Shown here: in pieces, positions 8,820 through 53,360 of the stretch
How positions within the stretch are numbered: position 1 is the first letter of the stretch
Layout: each line of letters starts with the position of its first letter
Assembly (NCBI RefSeq): GCF_003264855.1
Contig: NZ_NFZS01000006.1
Span: 1-64,000 of the forward strand
Length of the DNA: 64,000 nucleotides
Source: Dyella jiangningensis
Lineage (GTDB): Bacteria > Pseudomonadota > Gammaproteobacteria > Xanthomonadales > Rhodanobacteraceae
Direction of reading: 5' to 3'
Notes under the pieces: model-generated
Databases searched by the model: none
What the model was told of the DNA's origin: nothing
What the model saw: the letters and a program-made list of their open reading frames with translations, nothing else
Program-made: the position numbers and the translations under genes

Positions 8820-11800
8820 TTAGGGGTGGAGGCTGGCGGCTTTGGGGTCGGCGGTGAGGTGGTGGGTGTCTGTTCGGCGCAGCAGGGCGTTGCGCCAGTG
8901 TTGTTGCTGCGCGCTGGTGGATTCGATGAGCCACTGCGGTTTGTTGGCGACCCAGGCGGCGACGGCCACGCCGTCTTCGTAGAGCACGCGGGTGCCGGTG
9001 ACGGCGGGGAGTTTGTTGCCGGCCAGCACGGTGCCCACGAGGTTGAGCGGGTCTGAGCCGCTGACGAGTACGAGTTCGCCTTGCGGCTCTTGCTGGCGGA
9101 TGGCGCGCAGGCGGCCGATGGCTTCGGGCAGGGCGAACTGTTCGCCGACCAGGCCTTCCACGAAGCGGCCGCCGCGGATTTCGCCGCGGGCTTCCAGGCG
9201 GTGGTAGACGCGCAGCAGTTCGCGCCAGCTGGGGAGCCAGGGGGCTTCGCGTTCGAGCAGCTTCCAGAAGACGACGCCGTAGCGGCGTAGGAGGGTGCGG
9301 GCGATGTGTTCGAGGGTTTCGGGGTCGGGCTTTCCGGCGCTGGCTGGGGGTTTCGCAAGACCCGCACCCTCATCCGGCCCTTCGGGCCACCTTCTCCCGG
9401 GGGAGAAGGAAGAGCTGGGGCGCACTAGCGACCAGCGACCTGCGTCTTCGACGCCGGTGAGCATGTGGCGGCGGAGGCGGCGGTGGCGGTGGGCGTCGCG
9501 TTTGGCGGCGGGCACCAGCAAGGCGCGCAGGCCGGCGAAGCTGTCGGCGGTGATGCGGCCGGCGGCGACGAGTTCGCCCAGGGCGTCTTCCAGTTCGGTA
9601 CGCAGCAGGTGCGTGGCGTGCATGAGTTCGTCGAAGAACAGGGCGCCTTCGTCACGCAGGGTGTCGAGCACGGCCTGGGCGCGTGAGGACACGGGGGTGT
9701 CCTGCACTTCTCCCGCGTTGGCGGCGGTGCTGGCCCATACCGGGACGCTGCGGCGCGGCAGCAGCACGATGGGCGTGGCGCGCACGGGGCCGCCGCCACT
9801 GCCGGTGCCGGTGCGCAGACGGCTCCAGCTGATGCGGCCGGCGCGGCACAGGTCGTCCAGCCAGGTGATGGAGTAGTCGTTGATGCGCGCGGGCAGCACT
9901 TCGGTTTCCCACGCGCCGGCGGCGGCCTCGTAGCCTTCGAGCTGGGTGAGCACGGCGGGCAGCGCGTCGGGGCCGCTGAGGCGTGCGCCGGGTGCGGCGT
10001 GCTGCCATTCGAACAGGAAGCGCATGAGGTCGCGGCGGCTGACCGGCTCGATCTCGCGGCGCAGGCGACCGATGGTATAGCGGTGGATGCGCGCGAGCAG
10101 ATGGCGCTCGCACCACTCGATGTCCTGCGTGCCGGGCGTGAAGTGGCCCTGCATCACGTAGCCTTCCGACTGCAGGCGCAGCAGGGTGAGGCCGATGTCG
10201 GACGCGGGTACGTGCAGCGACGCGGCGAGCTGCGGCACGGTGACAGGGCCGAGGCCGGTCAGGCGGCCGCGGACGAGTTCGAGCAGGGCGTCTTCGCGGG
10301 TCCAGGGTTGGGCGGCGTATTCGGCGGGGGCGGTGATGGGTGGATGGAGGGCGGCGTCCGGGTGGACGGATTGCCATTGGGGGAGTTTTTCGGCTGATGT
10401 CCATACGTCGGACTGAGGCAAGAGTGGCCCCTCACCCCGGCCCTCTCCTCGCTCCTCAAAGCCGCGGCCGTCCATGGCCGCTCCCCGCGTACCCCGGAGG
10501 GGAGAGGGAGCTAGGAGCGTCGCACGGTGATTCTTGGCGAGGGACTTGAGCCAGTCGTTCCAGCCTTCGTGGGTGTCGGCTTCGTGTTGGGTGATGCCGC
10601 CGAGGATGCCCAGGGCTTCGTGCATTTCGTCGGCGCTGCGCACTTGCGGCCACGCTTCTTCGCGGACGGAGGCGATGGCGTCTTCGTCGAGGCGGCCGAG
10701 GTCGTCGGCGCTGTCGGCGTCGGTCCAGCGGCGGGATTGCACGGCCTGGGTGCGGCGTTCTTCCAGCGGTGCGTCGTCGAGGTAGGCGTACGGCGCGGCG
10801 TTGAGCACTTCGCCGGCCAGCGGGCTGGGGGCGGCGAGATCGCGGGCGACGACGCGGATGGAGCCTTCTTCCAGCCCGCGCAGGATGTGCAGCAGACCGT
10901 CGACGTCCATCGCTTCGCGCAGGCAGTCGTGCAGGGTCTGGTTGACCAGCGGGTGATCGGGAATCTCGCGTTCGCCGGCAAGGTTTTCCGCGCAGGCCAC
11001 CTGGTCGGGGAAGACGGTGGCGAGCAGGTCTTCGCTCTTCATGCGCTGCAGTTGCGGTGGCACCTTGCGGCCGCCCTGGAAGCGCGGCAGGGCGAGCGCG
11101 GTGGTGGCGTTCCAGCGCCAGCGCACGGGAAACAGCGGCGCATCGAGCAGCGCCTGCACCAGCACGTCTTCGGCGGAATTGGAGTGCAGGTAACGCGCCA
11201 CTTCTTCCAGCGGGAAGCTGTGACTGGTGGACAACGACAGCACGATGGCGTCTTCGGTGGCGGCGGCCTGCAGTTCGAAGTTGAACTGGCGACAGAAGCG
11301 CTTGCGCAGCGCGAGACCCCAAGCGCGATTGATGCGGCTGCCCCACGGCGTATGGATGATGAGCTGGGTGCCGCCGGATTCGTCGAAGAAACGCTCGAAC
11401 ACGATGGTGTCCTGCGTGGGCAGCACGCCGAGCGCGGCCTTGGCGCCGGCCATATAGTCGGCCAGCTGCTGCGCGGCGGCTTCGTTGAGGCCCAGCGTGT
11501 GCATCAGCCAGTGCATGACGGCGGGCACGCCGCCTTCGTCGAGGCGCGTGGCGATCTCTTCGCGCAGGCGCGATACGCCGTGCGATAACTCGTTGGAGCG
11601 GCCCGGCGCTTCGCCCAGCCAGAACGGGATGTTCGGCGGCACGCCCTGCGCATCTTCCACGCGCAGGCGATCGCGCTCCACGCGGATGATGCGGTAGCTG
11701 GTGTTGCCCAGCTGGAACACGTCGCCGGCCAGGCTTTCCACGGCGAAGTCTTCGTTGACCGTGCCGATGATGGTGGCCTGCGGTTCGAGCACGACGAGGT

Positions 11801-13463
11801 AATCGGCCGTGTCGGGGATGGCGCCGCCCGACGTGATGGCAGTGAGTCGTGCATTGCGGCGCGCACGCAGTTGCTTGTGCACGGCGTCGCGATGGATGTA
11901 CGCGCTGCGCGGACCATGCCGCGTGGTGAAGCCATCGGCCAGCATGCGTACGGATTCGTCGAACTGCTGGCGCGTGAGGTTGCGATAGGGATAGGCGCGA
12001 CGCAGCGTGTCGTACAGCGCGTCTTCGCTCCATTCCTGGCAGGCCACTTCGGCGACGATCTGCTGCGCGAGCACGTCGAGCGGTTGCGGCGGCTGGATCA
12101 AGGTGTCGAGTTCGCCGCGACGCACGCAGTCGAGCAGCGCGGTGCATTCCACGAGATCGTCGCGCGTGGTCGGGAACAGGCGCGCTTTCGGCGTGCCGTT
12201 CACCGCGTGGCCGGAGCGGCCCGCGCGCTGCAGGAAGGCGGCGATGGAACGCGGCGAGCCCATCTGGCAGACGAGGTCCACATCGCCGATGTCGATGCCG
12301 AGCTCCAGCGATGCCGTGGCCACCAGCACCTTGAGGTCGCCGCGCTTGAGGCGCTGCTCGGCGTCGAGGCGCTGCTCCTTGGCGAGGCTGCCGTGGTGCG
12401 CAGCAACGGTCTCCTTGCCCATGCGTTCGGAGAGATGTCGCGCCACTCGCTCGGCGAGGCGACGCGTGTTGACGAACACGAGCGTGGTGCGATGCGTTTC
12501 GACGAGATGCGCCAGCTGGTTGTAGACCAGCTCCCAGCAGTCGTTGGACATCACCGATTCGAGCGGCACCGGAGGGACGACGATGGCGAGGTCGCGCTCG
12601 CGCGTGTGGCCGACGTCGATGATGTTGACGGTGTCTTTTTCGATTTCCTTCTCCCTGGGGAGAAGGTGGCCCGAAGGGTCGGATGAGGGTGCGGGGCTTG
12701 TGGCTTCGTTGATAAGAGCGGGGGTTCGCTTTGAACTAACACCATCGCGAGAGTGGCCCCTCACCCCGACCCTCTCCCCGGGGGGGAGAGGGAGTTGAGC
12801 GTGTGCGCCCACGAGAAACTTGGCGACTTCTTCAATCGGCTTCTGCGTCGCCGACAAGCCAATGCGCAGCAGCCTGCGCTGGCACAGCGACTCCAACCGC
12901 TCCAGCGACAGCGCCAGGTGCGCGCCACGCTTGCTCGACGCCAGCGCGTGGATTTCATCCACGATCACCGTGCGCGTACCCGACAGCATGCGGCGGCCCG
13001 ATTCGGAGCCGAGCAGGATGTAGAGCGATTCGGGCGTGGTCACCAGGATGTGCGGGGCCTGCTTGCGCATGCTGTTGCGCTCGGCCTGCGGGGTGTCGCC
13101 GGTGCGTACGGCCGTGCGGATGTCCACGTCGGGCAGGCCCATCGCGGCGAGTTGCGCACGGATGCCTTCGAGCGGGGCTTCCAGGTTGATGCGGATGTCG
13201 TTGGACAGCGCCTTCAGCGGCGACACGTAGACGATGGAGGTGACGTCTTCTAGCGTGCCACCGTTTTCCACGCCTTCGCGCACCAGCGTATCAATGGCGG
13301 CGAGAAAGGCGGTGAGCGTCTTGCCCGAACCTGTCGGGGCGGCCACGAGCGTATGACGGCCCGCCCGAATGGACGGCCAGGCGGCTTTTTGCGGCGCCGT
13401 GGGCTCGCTGAACGCGCCCTGGAACCAGGCCGCGACGGCGGGATGAAAATCGTGCAGTGGCAT
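8820..13463 (-). CDS. lhr: Large ATP-dependent helicase Lhr with in-frame palindromic insertions
   Basis: Superfamily 2 DExH helicase of the Lhr family, DNA-stimulated 3'-5' helicases linked to DNA repair. Seen: Walker A APTGSGKT (about 42-49), [13 protein letters not shown] (about 168-180), IGLSAT (about 201-206), and the second RecA domain with [19 protein letters not shown] and QRAGRSGH, followed by the long Lhr-specific winged-helix and C-terminal region. The product is 1547 residues, about 110 more than typical Pseudomonas-type Lhr. The excess is explained by three low-complexity segments at about 222-278, 983-1014 and 1345-1372, whose DNA matches palindromic intergenic repeats. The frame stays open across all three. 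No partner gene is adjacent. Confidence 0.93.
9345..9420. repeat. Palindromic repeat inside lhr (copy 3)
   Basis: The stretch has CTTCTCCCGGGGGAGAAG with a flanking part reading CATCCGGCCCTTCGGGCCAC. A very similar unit occurs at about 12645-12700 in the same gene. On the coding strand it is translated as [17 protein letters not shown]. Confidence 0.75.
10425..10515. repeat. Palindromic repeat inside lhr (copy 2)
   Basis: The outer parts GGCCCCTCACCCCGGCCCTC and GGAGGGGAGAGGGAG match the repeat at 12750-12797 and at 48143-48180, with an extra inner palindrome around CGCGGCCGTCCATGGCCGC. It is translated in frame within Lhr as a glycine/arginine-rich segment. Confidence 0.7.
12640..12800. repeat. 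Two palindromic repeats side by side inside lhr (copy 1)
   Basis: A unit with TTCTCCCTGGGGAGAAGG (about 12645-12700) is followed after a short spacer by a unit with CCTCTCCCCGGGGGGGAGAG (about 12750-12797). The second matches the intergenic copy at 48143-48180, and the first matches the copy at 9345-9420. Together they add about 55 codons to lhr. Confidence 0.78.
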
Positions 13464-16894: not shown

Positions 16895-16911
16895 CGCGCG
16901 CCGTCTCTACC

Positions 16912-17608
16912 CTGTTGGAGCACACCCAGTGCGCGAAAAGCCTGCGGAGAGGTACGACGAATCTCCGCGATCGCGCACAGGGTGCGCTCCTACAAAAAAG
17001 CAGGATTGGGCGCGTGGGGTATCTCTGCCGTTGTGGGGGCGCACCCTGTGCGCGACAAACCTGCGAAACGGCAGCGACGAATCTTCGCGGTCGCCCACAG
17101 GGTGAGCTCCCACAAGCATTCGCTACGGCTTCGCCAAAACACTGCCCTTCACCTGTAGGAGCGCACCCAGTGCGCGAAAAGCCTACGGAGCGGCAACGGC
17201 GAACCTCTGCGATCGCGCACTGGGTGCGCTCCTACAAAGGGACCGCTCCGCCCGCGCCAAATGAATCCTCTTTTCTGTGGGAGCGCACCCTGTGCGCGAC
17301 AAACCTACGAAGCGGTGACGACGAGGCGCCGCGATCGCGCACTGGGTGCGCTCCTACAAGAGAACCGCACTGCCCGCTCCACGACACCTTGTCTCTCCTT
17401 GTAGGAGCGCACCCAGTGCGCGAAGAGCCTATCCCCCAAGGGGCCTCGCGGAGCGGTGACGATGAGGCGCTGCAGTCGCGCACAGGGTGCGCTCCCACAT
17501 GGTGGCGGCGTGTACACAGATCTCTCTGTAGGAGCGCACCCAGTGCGCGAAAAGCCTACAGAGCGGCCACGACGAGCCCACGATCGCGCACTGGGTGCGC
17601 TCCTACAA
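16912..17608. repeat. Tandem array of six REP/BIME-type hairpin units
   Basis: Six units begin near 16912, 17031, 17154, 17276, 17400 and 17527. Each has a left arm like TGTAGGAGCGCACCCAGTGC and a right arm that is its reverse complement, around a centre resembling AAAAGCCTACGGAGCGGCAA. Units are 82-100 bp, spacers are 26-40 bp of unrelated sequence, and the period is 119-127 bp. No protein is encoded. Lone pairs or single arms of the same family occur at 31991, 32774, 47208, 48243 and 63553. Confidence 0.93.
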
Positions 17609-17652
17609 AGGAATGCGCAACCTACGCCACGGCGCAGAAAGAACACGGCGCG

Positions 17653-48140: not shown

Positions 48141-48268
48141 GCTCCCTCTCCCCTTGGGGAGAGGGCTGGGGTGAGAGGCTGCACTAGCCACGAACTATAT
48201 GGTTGGACTGGCTCCAAAGCCGATAGGCCCTGGCAGGCCACATCGCGCACTGGGTGCGCTCCTACAGA
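48141..48268. repeat. Palindromic repeat of the lhr-insert family plus a single REP arm
   Basis: CCCTCTCCCCTTGGGGAGAG with the following GGCTGGGGTGAGAGG is an intergenic relative of the units inside lhr. A lone arm TCGCGCACTGGGTGCGCTCC follows at 48243-48266. Confidence 0.85.
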
Positions 48269-49769: not shown

Positions 49770-50567
49770 CTACTTGCCCGGAGGTGAACCGGGAGGCGCC
49801 ACGTTCTGCAGGTTGCCCACCTCCACCGTGGGCTTGGATTCCACCTGGACCTTCCATTGCAGGTCCTTCATCCTGGTGTAGCTGTCGATGTTCCAGACCG
49901 ACGAGCGATAGAACTGATCCAGGGTCATCCAGGACGGAGCGTTGGCGTTGTATGCGCTGGTGACACCAGCGCCCTGGATGGTGCCCCAGCCGATGGAACC
50001 CACCCTGCTGCCGGTGACGTTCCTTCGTACGTACTCCAGTTCCATCTCCAGGCGATGGAGCGCCACCTTGTCGTCGTACTCGACCAGGATCTCCTGACCC
50101 ACGCGAAGCGCCTGTGCACGCTCGGCTTCGCTCAGCTGGCTCCAGTAGTACTCGCGCTGCGCAATGAAGCGGTTGTAGCCGCGGCTGGAAGCAAGATCCA
50201 TCCATGCATAGGCGCGGGGGCGGTCGACCGGCGTACCCACGCCCTCCCAGTACATGTTGGCCACCGCCGCCTGTGAGGGTTTGTCCGCAAAGGCGCCGGC
50301 GCGCATGAACATCCTCAGTGCGCGCGCCTTGTCGCCATGCTTGTAGGCGGCCATCGCCAGGTCCCGATAGCGCAGGTCCGGGTGTTGGTTGACGATCATG
50401 GGATTGGCCATCATCTCGTCGAACCTTTGAAGCTCCTTCAACGCCCGGGGATCGGTGGCGGCACGATCGAGCAACGCCGCGGCATCAGGCGCGGCTTCCT
50501 GCGCGAATACCGCCGCGCTTGCGCCAAGCCACCAACCGAGCACCCACGCTGTCGTTCTTGTCGCCAT
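49770..50567 (-). CDS. Exported Sel1-like protein, paralogue 1 of 4
   Basis: A 265-residue secreted or periplasmic protein. Signal peptide about 1-23 ([20 protein letters not shown]), then a Sel1/TPR-like helical segment (about 85-130; [20 protein letters not shown]), a block with [20 protein letters not shown], and a variable glycine-rich part before the conserved tail [20 protein letters not shown]. Sel1 repeats mediate protein contacts; no enzyme motif is visible. The start at 50567 is chosen from AGGGAGCGG upstream and the signal peptide. Confidence 0.82.
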
Positions 50568-50702
50568 ACCGTCCGCTCCCTGACGAATCCCGTCATCGAT
50601 GCACCGGGATGCGGCCATTCGGCGCGACACCCGCCCGGCCCATCATAGACTGGCGATGGTGGACCATTTCGGCATTGGGGCAGCACGCCTGTTTCTTCGC
50701 GA

Positions 50703-51545
50703 TCACCTGGCAGGCGGCGTCGCCACGTTCTGCGCGTCACCCACCTCGACCGTTGGCCTGGACTCGACCCGCACCTGCCATTGGAGGTCCTTGAACTTGG
50801 CGTACTCGTTGATCTTCCAGACCGAGGGCCGATAAAACTCGGTGAGGCTCGCCATGGAAGGACCCATCATGTCGAATCCACCGTTCGCGCCAGACGCGCC
50901 GCCGCGCCCCCCAGGCCTCGACATACCCGTGCTACCGCCACCCGTGAATATCGTCGAGCCGCCAAAGCCCATGACCTTGCCGTTTCCCTTGAAGCCGACG
51001 TGGCTGCCGATGGGGTTTCGCCGTATGAATTCGAGTTCCATCTCAAGACGGTGCAACGCGATCTTGTCGTCGTATTCGGCATAGACGTCCTCGCCCACGC
51101 GCAGTGCCTGTGCACGCTCGGCCTCGGTCAGCTGGCTCCAGTAGTACTCGCGTTTCGCGATGAAGCGGACGTAGCCACGGGAAGCGGCAAGATCCATCCA
51201 GGCATAGGCCCGAGGACGATCCACCGAGGTGCCGATGCCATCCCAGTACATGTGGGCCACGGCTGCCTGCGAGGGTTTGTCGGCATAGCTGGCGGCGCGC
51301 ATGAACATCTTGAACGCGCGTTCCCTGGCTCCATTCTTGTAAGCCTCCATCGCCAGCTCACGGTAGTAGATGTCCCGATGCTGCGTGGCCACGCCCGGCA
51401 TGCTCATCATCTCTTCGAATTTATCCAGCTCCCTGAGCTCCTTGGGATTGGTGACCGGCTGACCTGTGGGCGCCTCTTGCGCAAACGCCGCGTGAGCCGC
51501 GCCGACCAGCAGCCCGAGAAGCATTGCCATCGCTTTTCCAGTCAT
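50703..51545 (-). CDS. Exported Sel1-like protein, paralogue 2 of 4
   Basis: A 280-residue relative of the neighbouring genes, closest to paralogue 3. Signal peptide about 1-22 (MTGKAMAMLLGLLVGAAHAA), Sel1-like core [20 protein letters not shown] (about 98-117), and [21 protein letters not shown] glycine/serine-rich insert (about 195-230) with several GGG runs is unique to this copy, before the tail LQWQVRVESRPTVEVGD. Its 5' flank resembles that of paralogue 1 (GCTCCCTGACGAATCCC in both), so duplication included the upstream DNA. Confidence 0.82.
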   Translation of the reverse strand: MTGKAMAMLLGLLVGAAHAAFAQEAPTGQPVTNPKELRELDKFEEMMSMPGVATQHRDIYYRELAMEAYKNGARERAFKMFMRAASYADKPSQAAVAHMYWDGIGTSVDRPRAYAWMDLAASRGYVRFIAKREYYWSQLTEAERAQALRVGEDVYAEYDDKIALHRLEMELEFIRRNPIGSHVGFKGNGKVMGFGGSTIFTGGGSTGMSRPGGRGGASGANGGFDMMGPSMASLTEFYRPSVWKINEYAKFKDLQWQVRVESRPTVEVGDAQNVATPPAR

Positions 51546-51683
51546 GTCGCTCGCTCCCTGACGAATCCCTTCATCGATGCGCCGGCAGCCGTCCGTCCGG
51601 CGTCACGCCCATGCAGCCCAGTCTTGGCTGACCTGGATGGAGCGCCTCGACCTTTGGACCACACGCCCCGATGTCATTCGCGA

Positions 51684-52520
51684 TCACTTGGCAGGCGGCG
51701 TCGCCACGTTCTGCAAATCACCCACGTCGACCGTCGGCTTGGACTCGACGCGCTCCTGCCATTGGATGTCCTTGAACCTGGCGTAATCGTTGACCTTCCA
51801 TATAGACGGGCGATACAGCTCGCTCAGGTTCGCTATCGGAAGGCCCAGATCCTGTTCACTGCCCGATGTAGACGTGGCGTTACCACCGGGACGAGGCAGC
51901 CCCGTGCTGGCGCGACCCGTGTTCATCGTGTGGGTAAAGCCATAAACCTTGCCCGTCCCCACGAAGCCGACGTGACTGCCGACGACATTTCTTCGCGTGA
52001 ATTCGAGCTCCATCTGCAGGCGATGGAGCGCGATCTTGTCATCGTATTCGGCATAGATGTCCTGGCCTACGCGCAGCGCCTGCGCACGCTCGGCTTCGGT
52101 CAGCTGGCTCCAGTAGTACTCGCGTTTCGCGAGGAAGCGGTCGTAGCCGCGGGTCGCGGCAAGATCCATCCATGCGTAGGCGCGAGGACGGTCGACTGCA
52201 GTACCCACGCCCTCCCAATACATATCCGCGATAGCCGCCTGCGAAGGCTTGTCGGCATAGCTGGCAGCACGCATGAACATCTTCAACGCGCGTTCCTTGT
52301 CGCCGTTCTTGTAGGCCTCCATCGCCAGCTCACGATAGAGGATGTCCTTGTGCTGCCTGGCCACGCCCGGCACGTCCATCATTTCTTCGAATTTGGCCAG
52401 TTCCCTGAGGTCCTTGGGGTCGGTAACCGGTTTACTCGTTGGCGCCTCCTGCGCTAGCGCCGCATGGCCCGCGCCGACCAGCAGCCCGAGAACCACCACC
52501 ATCGTTGTTTTTGCAACCAT
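51684..52520 (-). CDS. Exported Sel1-like protein, paralogue 3 of 4
   Basis: A 278-residue member of the tandem family. Signal peptide about 1-22 (MVAKTTMVVVLGLLVGAGHA), core [40 protein letters not shown], a threonine/serine-rich variable part, and the tail DIQWQERVESKPTVDVGD. The ATG at 52520 is preferred because AAGGAG lies eight bases upstream, while the longer frame would need a GTG inside that site. Function unknown. Confidence 0.82.
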   Translation of the reverse strand: MVAKTTMVVVLGLLVGAGHAALAQEAPTSKPVTDPKDLRELAKFEEMMDVPGVARQHKDILYRELAMEAYKNGDKERALKMFMRAASYADKPSQAAIADMYWEGVGTAVDRPRAYAWMDLAATRGYDRFLAKREYYWSQLTEAERAQALRVGQDIYAEYDDKIALHRLQMELEFTRRNVVGSHVGFVGTGKVYGFTHTMNTGRASTGLPRPGGNATSTSGSEQDLGLPIANLSELYRPSIWKVNDYARFKDIQWQERVESKPTVDVGDLQNVATPPAK

Positions 52521-52565
52521 GTCACTCACTCCTTGTGGATTCCGTGTGTCACAGCACGCGATACG

Positions 52566-53360
52566 TCAGCTCGCCGGGTGCGTCTTTTCGGACGAGGTCC
52601 GGATCGGCTCAAGATCGCCCACAGCAACATGCGCCTTCATCATCTGGACTTGCCACTGCAGGTCCTTCATCTGCAGGTATTGCGCTGTGTTGAGGCGTAT
52701 TGCATCGCTGATCGAACTCATGTCCCGGCTGGCAGCCGTGCTTCCCAGCAGGCCTGCAACGCTTTCGCCGCCGGCGGCGCGACTGGCACTGTCGGCATGG
52801 ATCACCACGCCATAGCCCGCCCATCCCAGATGACTTCCCGTGACCTGCGAGCGGATGCTGCCGAGCTCCCGCGTCAGGCGGCGCGCGCCAACGTCATCGC
52901 CATAATCAGCCTCCAGGGACTGGCGCAGGTCGCGTGTCCGATCACGCTCGTCATCGCTCAATTGCGCCCAGTAGAGATCGCGCTGGTGCTGCAGCTCGGG
53001 ATAACCGCGACTGGCGGCAAGATCCATCCATGCATAGGCCAGCGCGCGATCATGCGGAGCCCCGTCGCCGGTCCAGTACATCAGGGCAACGACGGCCTGC
53101 GAGGCCTTGTCGACGTAGCGCGATGCCAGGAGGAAGTTCTCTAAAGCCTCGCGCCTGCGGCCTCCGCGATAGGCGTTCATCCCCAGGTCGCGAAAACGCA
53201 AGTCGGAATGCGCATCGACGAAGGGACCGGTAGCCATGTCGGCCAGCACCGCGCCGCTGCGCTTGAGATCGCCGGACGACACGGCAGCGTGTTGCGCCCA
53301 AGCCGACTCGGCGCCAACGGCGGCGACGAACAGCATCGAAAGCATCGCAAGCCTGCGCAT
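52566..53360 (-). CDS. Exported Sel1-like protein, paralogue 4 of 4 (most divergent)
   Basis: A 264-residue protein with signal peptide (MRRLAMLSMLFVAAVGAESA) and the same layout as its three neighbours: LRFRDLGMNAYRGGRRREAL (compare RELAMEAYKNGDKERAL), core MYWTGDGAPHDRALAYAWMD, DLYWAQLSDDERDRTRDLRQ and a tail MKDLQWQVQMMKAHVAVGD. It is the least similar copy and the first in transcription order. AGGAG lies before the ATG at 53360. Only 45 bp separate it from paralogue 3. Confidence 0.8.
   Translation of the reverse strand: MRRLAMLSMLFVAAVGAESAWAQHAAVSSGDLKRSGAVLADMATGPFVDAHSDLRFRDLGMNAYRGGRRREALENFLLASRYVDKASQAVVALMYWTGDGAPHDRALAYAWMDLAASRGYPELQHQRDLYWAQLSDDERDRTRDLRQSLEADYGDDVGARRLTRELGSIRSQVTGSHLGWAGYGVVIHADSASRAAGGESVAGLLGSTAASRDMSSISDAIRLNTAQYLQMKDLQWQVQMMKAHVAVGDLEPIRTSSEKTHPAS

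Follow-up and report, generated by a model that had tools for sequence, protein, structure and literature searches.

In-frame palindromic repeat DNA recurs at four linkers of the Lhr helicase in Dyella and its relatives

Palindromic repeat DNA is carried in frame at four linkers of the large helicase-related protein, Lhr, and recurs there across many related bacteria, with unrelated repeat families found in one and the same linker. This pattern suggests that linkers in proteins can serve as places where bacterial repeat DNA lands repeatedly. Our starting point is a 64,000-nt stretch from Dyella jiangningensis (the window), in which the inserts were read from the DNA and their translation is predicted.

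Palindromic repeats within lhr and across the genome

The lhr product has DEAD, Helicase_C, WH_Lhr, DEAD_assoc, WH3_Lhr, and WH4_Lhr domains in Pfam, and matches PDB entries 7lhl and 5v9x. Three segments of the gene are in-frame copies of a dispersed palindromic repeat. The relevant features of the window are as follows.

8820..13463, minus strand: lhr, Large helicase-related protein, 1547 aa (open reading frame with Pfam and PDB matches)
12645..12794, minus strand: site 1, residues ~222-278, linker between the two helicase domains, a head-to-head doublet
12747..12794, minus strand: site 1 unit CCCTCACCCC-NN-CCCTCTCCCC-loop-GGGGAGAGGG (pattern and alignment)
12645..12700, minus strand: site 1 unit CCTCATCCG-CCCTTCGGG-CACCTTCTCCC-GGGAGAAGG (pattern and alignment)
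10420..10511, minus strand: site 2, residues ~983-1014, single in-frame unit separating the Lhr core from the C-terminal winged-helix part
approx. 10450..10494, minus strand: module nested within the loop of site 2, ~45 nt, 15 codons (ends placed by eye)
9356..9411, minus strand: site 3, residues ~1345-1372, single in-frame unit in the C-terminal part before WH4_Lhr
48142..48188, minus strand: another instance of the unit seen at sites 1 and 2, outside coding frames (GC-frame test)

Alignment of 12747-12794 with the minus-strand copy at 48142-48188 gives 38 identical columns of 48, and alignment of 12645-12700 with site 3 at 9356-9411, in the opposite orientation, gives 52 of 56 (both counted by eye). 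These alignments confirm a sequence-only reading of the window, which had related the lhr segments to palindromic families found between genes. Its further proposal, that a dispersed palindromic family had inserted in frame with four units in lhr, is also supported. The repeats it had described are real, and their layout is revised: site 1 is a single doublet of two units, a form common among the dispersed copies, and site 2 is one unit with a nested module. That module is present or absent among sister species and occurs in some dispersed copies. The first insert, which might form a surface loop, had been placed between conserved helicase blocks, in agreement with an alignment to mycobacterial Lhr in which query residue 229 is followed directly by 288. 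The site 1 segment is short or absent in other Lhr lineages and is absent from 7lhl. An Rfam search of the window matched a tRNA only.

We refer to four repeat families: F1, the CCCTCTCCCC family found in the window; F2, its CCCTCCCC sister; F3, the GTAG REP; and F4, a GGCAATC/GATTGCC repeat. F1 and F2 have a common architecture and are probably sister families. F1 is dispersed in the window's genome. With two mismatches at most, the pattern CCCTCACCCCNNCCCTCTCCC matches the genome 50+36 times, compared with 2+2 for a reversed control; the sequence-only reading depended on this dispersal. As loops vary, an initial fixed-loop pattern recovered the 48142 copy alone, and a second pattern has 2 matches in the window with 0.00 expected from 100 shuffles. 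The unit type shared by 12645 and 9356 is rare, with 3 genomic matches, 2 of them in lhr. Many dispersed copies are head-to-head doublets and others are single units; the doublets show the dimeric inverted-repeat symmetry that is characteristic of MITEs as short elements.

The genomic matches form 70 clusters, 65 of which lie outside coding frames by the GC-frame test, contradicting the earlier suggestion that the repeat favours coding DNA. The five clusters within coding frames are the three in lhr, one in an HrpA-like helicase, and one in a linker of dihydrolipoamide dehydrogenase. The chance that three of five intragenic clusters fall in one gene by length is ~1e-8, a figure that assumes an 88% coding genome and was computed after lhr had been singled out. 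Since this concentration exceeds the length expectation, tolerance alone may not suffice to explain it. An F1 doublet in the frame of an efflux protein failed the coding test and looks to lie upstream of the start. Loop length modulo 3 was dropped as a sign of frame purging; it is uninformative, given that 11 nt is already the loop length in 49 of 80 dispersed units.

A search of the genome found no enzyme that moves F1. The sole Y1_Tnp match (C1:375616-375933) is weak at 22.8 bits, and the nearest F1 match is ~2 kb away at C1:373646. GTAG-type REPs are expected to flank a RAYT gene, and no such gene flanked by F1 was found; the Y1_Tnp match is flanked by F3, at 375420 and 376005. By eye, no GTAG or CGTC tag stands beside the stem in the printed copies of F1 units.

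Recurrence at four linkers among Lhr proteins

Of 150 order-level genomes, 90 had a match, and 60 were fetched, hand-chosen for spread. The alignment has 101 rows and leaves aside two fragments (L074 and L080), two duplicates (L081 and L082), and the frame-broken lhr of one Dyella genome (G012), in which the frame is broken at sites 1 and 2. In these 101 proteins, four linkers, after residues ~223, ~643, ~987, and ~1352, hold 230 of 234 matches to repeat patterns, in a scan that covered the families other than F4 with patterns written after the inserts had been seen. The remaining matches are three outside the linkers in the body, each the same plain coding motif, and one in an N-terminal extension.

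Inserts that can be typed to a family and have a stem of at least 8 bp occupy 80 sites in 41 of the 101 proteins. Of 576 control windows, 65 have a stem of 8 bp, but a family-typed insert with such a stem is found in none. The core and C-terminal part lie in a single frame in 40 of the 41 proteins. The least number of changes between occupied and empty states is 15, 3, 14, and 8 for sites 1, 4, 2, and 3, respectively, and 13, 2, 11, and 11 when a stricter label is applied on a tree of 57 rows. An F1 label at site 1 of one protein (L144, stem 7) is probably due to chance and is dropped by the stricter count. In genome G088 a TAG falls in one matched piece; the L180 frame there still covers the core and C-terminal part. 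Inserts at sites 1 and 3 use all three reading frames, so the encoded peptides differ. Comparison with orthologues, which had been proposed earlier, shows that many other Lhr proteins either lack the window's segments or differ in them. That earlier reading had missed the recurrence, by differing families, at the same linkers in Dyella, Rhodanobacter, and certain other relatives. Among the 60 untyped proteins, 16 have at least one linker longer than 16 residues with no recognised repeat, so linkers also lengthen by other routes or through decayed repeats.

The linker at residue ~987 (site 2) is occupied by F1 in 17 cases, F2 in 1, F3 in 4, and F4 in 1; the GTAG REP occupant is a doublet, and the F4 repeat is unrelated to the other occupants. 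These families are also dispersed: with lhr copies included, F2 is found at 23 places in G112 and 38 in G122, F3 has 113 matches in G112, and F4 has 6 in G046. The presence of unrelated families argues that this linker was invaded independently. As F1 and F2 are probably sisters, site 2 is the one linker where unrelated sequence firmly establishes independence.

A single ancient insertion in each linker, inherited and diverged past recognition so that the families descend from one element, would account for a site 1 spacer that can be aligned between species and for an insertion point that is nearly constant within the window's clade. We consider this very unlikely. It does not fit the occupation of site 2 by unrelated families, each dispersed in its own genome, and the site 1 offset and frame differ between the window's clade and that of D. 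flava and D. lipolytica. Rows with short linkers are also interleaved with occupied rows, which strains it further.

Hairpin arms and the origin of the inserts

Across 13 Dyella species, the hairpin arms do not change, whereas the fourfold sites beside them drift: fourfold third positions are unchanged at 6 of 6 places in the arms, and in the flanks the figure is 118 of 575 (p 9e-5). Selection on the hairpin could produce this result, and the inserts might be kept because longer linkers are useful or because DNA or RNA hairpins act on lhr expression. Site 1 RNA also folds better than its shuffles (z -3.48). However, shuffled sequences fold as well as sites 2 and 3 do (z -0.70 and 0.16), and mRNA structure at all sites was rejected as only site 1 exceeds its shuffles. 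Moreover, lhr stays open in species with short or decayed linkers, and the unpaired NN within the unit varies as it does among dispersed copies, as expected from exchange. Selection is an unlikely explanation. In a model of the C-terminal half (mean pLDDT 53.6) used solely for this contrast, the site 2 insert scores 31-46 in pLDDT, and the ten-residue blocks on either side score 82 and 94; the N-terminal half model is poor (mean 48.9) and was left unused for site 1.

Palindromes already in the linkers might instead draw in others, or undergo recombination with the dispersed copies, such that a linker once hit stays a hotspot. Nested modules are gained and lost in hairpin loops at one site, the rare unit type is common to sites 1 and 3 of the window, and the HrpA-like gene shows the same insertion pattern across the genus, its linker holding F1 in 15 and an F2-type repeat in 2 of 20 Dyella genomes (by eye). 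Against this, site 2 of Rhodanobacter sp. C03 holds a GTAG REP, whereas its close relatives have six residues there; insertion thus does not require a palindrome recognisable beforehand. We regard such attraction as possible, if somewhat unlikely. It is improbable that the long helicase genes lhr and hrpA are privileged and repeatedly reused acceptors of palindromic elements, through directed insertion or through hairpins kept for an effect on the helicase gene or protein. In one version of that idea, the helicase would sense the hairpins of its own gene, as DNA or as RNA.

The best reading, which we consider likely, combines recurrent insertion, survival in tolerant linkers, and arms kept alike by turnover or exchange. 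Non-autonomous palindromic repeats (REP/MITE-like), moved by a presumed insertion enzyme, would land at many places in the genome. Intragenic insertions would persist if they keep the frame, are free of stops, and lie in a flexible linker. At least four such linkers are present in Lhr, filled repeatedly and independently in Dyella and its relatives. The peptides, if translated as predicted, are rich in P, G, R, and E and would most likely be unstructured spacers that are neutral or nearly so. The arms may stay identical via copy turnover and exchange with the dispersed family, or via correction across the palindrome.

Relation to known intragenic repeats

Intragenic REPs and Rickettsia elements are already known; the gene, an untagged family, and the capture of one linker by unrelated families are new. 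As described in PMC3767692 and PMC10969869, palindromic elements of Rickettsia (RPEs) and Wolbachia are ~100-150 bp long, intragenic, and frame-keeping, and orthologues share insertion sites, in some cases with different RPE groups, helicase and recB-family genes being included. The Dyella repeats are similarly both dispersed and in frame within ORFs, which bears out the Rickettsia-like behaviour first proposed for them. They differ in their host group and in being GC-rich, in using all three frames, and in placing unrelated families at one linker. The conserved encoded peptide typical of RPEs was not found among the lhr inserts at sites 1 and 3.

GTAG/CGTC REPs and their dimers were reported in 2013 in coding regions, many of them DNA repair or replication genes, including RNA helicases of O. 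terrae, and in two Xanthomonas species recB has different REPs at roughly the same position (PMC3733652). F3 in other lhr genes has the same GTAG tag. The accessible text of that paper does not name Lhr or HrpA or describe recurrence over four linkers and many species. Enterobacterial RU/ERIC-like MITEs with ORFs in genes are likewise small mobile repeats that are translated (Delihas 2007, PMC2759123); the portion available concerns other genes and hosts and does not mention repeated capture of one linker. Searches of the open-licence literature, supplementary files aside, turned up no description of inserts like these in either Lhr or Dyella.

In the R. japonica study (PMC3767692), where orthologues have different palindromic elements at one position, the authors weighed a hotspot against one diverged insertion, leaned towards a common origin, which they preferred for RPE-4/6/7, and kept hotspots possible. 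A single linker with unrelated, separately dispersed families supports a hotspot or tolerance model, and the question becomes testable in culturable, free-living bacteria. The findings also point to a route by which long, probably disordered protein linkers may originate and be rewritten by selfish DNA.

Palindromic repeats in lhr and across the genome

The lhr gene is encoded at 8820-13463 on the minus strand and specifies a Large helicase-related protein of 1547 residues, with 7lhl and 5v9x as solved relatives. Among named relatives, the closest to this Dyella genome is D. jiangningensis SBZ 3-12, with 95% identity over the best tblastn segment. Three segments of Lhr are unlike the remainder of the protein and carry palindromic units:

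Site 1, residues ~222-278: palindromic units arranged as a head-to-head doublet
Site 2, residues ~983-1014: one palindromic unit with a second palindromic module inside its loop
Site 3, residues ~1345-1372: one palindromic unit

In the predicted translation, the three segments together have a higher fraction of disorder-type residues (PGESRKQTDN) than the remaining protein (0.72 versus 0.54), and are also richer in P+G+R+E (0.48 versus 0.29). Between query residues 229 and 288 the alignment to mycobacterial Lhr is nearly empty, which argues that site 1 is an addition between the two helicase domains. In a structure model, the site 2 insert has pLDDT values of 31-46 and its adjoining blocks reach 82 and 94. 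Site 3 also scores low, but within a region that is poor overall, and the quality of the N-terminal model is too poor for use.

The dispersed palindromic family, F1, has the unit architecture CCCTCACCCC-NN-CCCTCTCCCC-loop-GGGGAGAGGG. The first part of the unit matches the 4.76-Mb genome 86 times at up to 2 mismatches, versus 4 times for a reversed control. Together with a rarer unit type, F1 forms 70 clusters in 60 fetched stretches and the window. Just 5 of these lie within coding frames, as judged by an open frame and third-position GC on both sides, a test that would overlook insertions that disrupted a gene; random placement would put approximately 62 there, assuming a coding share of 88%. 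The repeat is therefore strongly depleted within genes. The five intragenic clusters are the three lhr sites, an F1-type cluster in a DEAH helicase resembling HrpA (L020), and a repeat doublet in a dihydrolipoamide dehydrogenase (L112, C5:31887-32026), where it sits in the Ala/Pro linker that follows the lipoyl domain; the latter two proteins were named by eye.

The unit type common to sites 1 and 3 has only one further match genome-wide, a hint of exchange inside lhr. Portions of the site 1 doublet have matches in 200 plasmid records, mostly from Rhizobium, Azospirillum and Shinella; none of these matches covers more than 80% of the doublet, and the single place inspected is intergenic. Such partial matches argue that hairpins like those of F1 are either old or shared widely. 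An exact F1 unit plus hairpin is also present in 34 viral-contig stretches (L224-L257), some of which are possibly host DNA. Elsewhere in the window, direct repeats of 134-300 nt spaced ~860-1000 nt apart (49772-53147) look like repeated domains or duplicated genes.

Inserts at four linkers of Lhr

We aligned 101 Lhr proteins, comprising that of the window, 40 from searches of relatives and 60 from an order-level survey in which 90 of 150 genomes gave an Lhr match. Inserts of at least 15 residues relative to the majority, inside the conserved body of Lhr, occur in 46 proteins after residue 223 (site 1), 32 after 1352 (site 3), 16 after 987 (site 2) and 5 after 643 (site 4), and in one or two proteins each after residues 648, 964, 1018, 1112 and 1250. 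Patterns for F1 and two further families, F2 and F3, match the 101 genes 230 times at the four linkers, once in an N-terminal extension and 3 times elsewhere, the last being one plain coding motif that recurs in three lhr genes.

Inserts were typed by a family pattern, composed after the inserts had been seen, together with a perfect stem no shorter than 8 bp. Typed inserts occupy 80 sites in 41 proteins (33 at site 1, 23 at site 2, 21 at site 3 and 3 at site 4). The same test was positive in 0 of 576 random lhr core windows; an 8-bp stem alone occurs in 65. Unoccupied site-by-protein cells are at most 16 residues long in 280 of 324 cases. All four linkers are short in 44 of the 60 untyped proteins, and the others have some long linker lacking a recognised repeat; part of these linkers are probably decayed repeats. 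A single frame runs from the core to the C-terminal part in 40 of the 41 proteins with typed inserts, subject to an ORF choice biased toward intact genes, and the exception (L188) falls below the length threshold at its C-terminal end. One Lhr from the same order (L163) has linkers of 111 and 139 residues containing several palindromes and an Asp-Ala repeat.

In one Dyella genome (G012), the lhr frame is broken at sites 1 and 2 (L097, L099, L104). The hrpA frame of G012 is also interrupted, around residues 132-159 and distant from the repeat, so base errors in the assembly are possible.

Distinct families at shared linkers

F2, with the architecture CCCTCCCCTGC-NN-GCAGGGGAGGG, is found in lhr of Rhodanobacter and some Dyella. 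Dispersal within the own genome was covered for the window's genome, G112, G122 and G046: F2 occurs at 23 places in G112 and 38 in G122, and its pattern has no match in the window's genome. Their shared architecture suggests that F1 and F2 are sister families. F3, the GTAG REP, is present as an in-frame doublet in four lhr genes, in each case at site 2 (GTAGGAGCGCACC type in three, GTAGGAGCGGCTTC type in one), and has 113 matches in G112. Despite 671 matches in the window's genome, none lies in its lhr at up to 3 mismatches. F4 (GGCAATC...GATTGCC...CTCGCAATGACG) occupies site 2 of L188 and has 6 matches in that genome, the site 2 copy included. By eye, F3 and F4 resemble neither F1 or F2 nor one another, which argues firmly for independent capture by unrelated families at site 2.

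Scattered occurrence suggests independent capture at sites 1, 3 and 4 as well, as do the differing insertion offset and frame at site 1. Minimum occupied/empty changes for sites 1, 4, 2 and 3, which lump gains with losses, are 15, 3, 14 and 8 on a FastTree tree of 101 rows, and 13, 2, 11 and 11 on a 57-row DNA tree with a stricter label.

A GTAG REP array and scattered copies (GTAGGAGCGCACCC.GTGCGCGA) are present in the window at 16906-17632, 31984, 47201 and 63546. The genome's only Y1-transposase (RAYT-like) match (L110, C1:375616-375933, E 0.001) has a GTAG REP on either side, at 375420 and 376005.

One linker of the HrpA-like protein, inspected by eye in 20 Dyella genomes, carries the F1 doublet in whole or part in 15 (one gene lying partly inside an assembly gap) and an F2-type insert in 2 (G017 and, decayed, G009). 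In the other three genomes, the sequence is decayed (G005), the frame is lost next to an assembly gap (G014) or the linker is unclassed (G016). In G014, hrpA runs into the gap (L218), probably through an assembly fault, since the preceding bases resemble a transposase-adaptor end.

Invariant arms and relation to known systems

Hairpin arms at site 1 were compared in 13 of 18 clade members with a long F1-type insert; excluding five members with short, lost or decayed inserts biases the comparison toward intact arms. The arms CCCTCTCCCC (10/10 columns), GAGAGGG (7/7) and GGGGTGAGGGG (10/11) are invariant or nearly so, and the spacer separating the hairpins drifts. In the flanks, fourfold sites show pooled differences of 0.35-0.39. 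Fourfold third positions are invariant at 6/6 in the arms, compared with 118/575 for the flanking sequence (p 9e-5). This pattern is expected if copies turn over and exchange with the dispersed family, and equally from hairpin correction or if the hairpin itself is under selection. We lean toward exchange because the unpaired NN varies at site 1 (2/2 columns) as it does among dispersed copies.

Published work describes in-frame palindromic elements (RPEs) in Rickettsia, differing RPE groups near one site of orthologues and inserts in helicase genes (PMC3767692, PMC10969869), as well as REPs inside DNA-repair genes (PMC3733652), with recB of two Xanthomonas hit at about one site. In-frame palindromic elements and REPs in repair genes are thus already in print. 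What is new here is the gene, lhr; a main family, F1, that is untagged, unlike intragenic GTAG REPs; and the repeated capture of the same linkers, which at site 2 involved families whose sequences appear unrelated.
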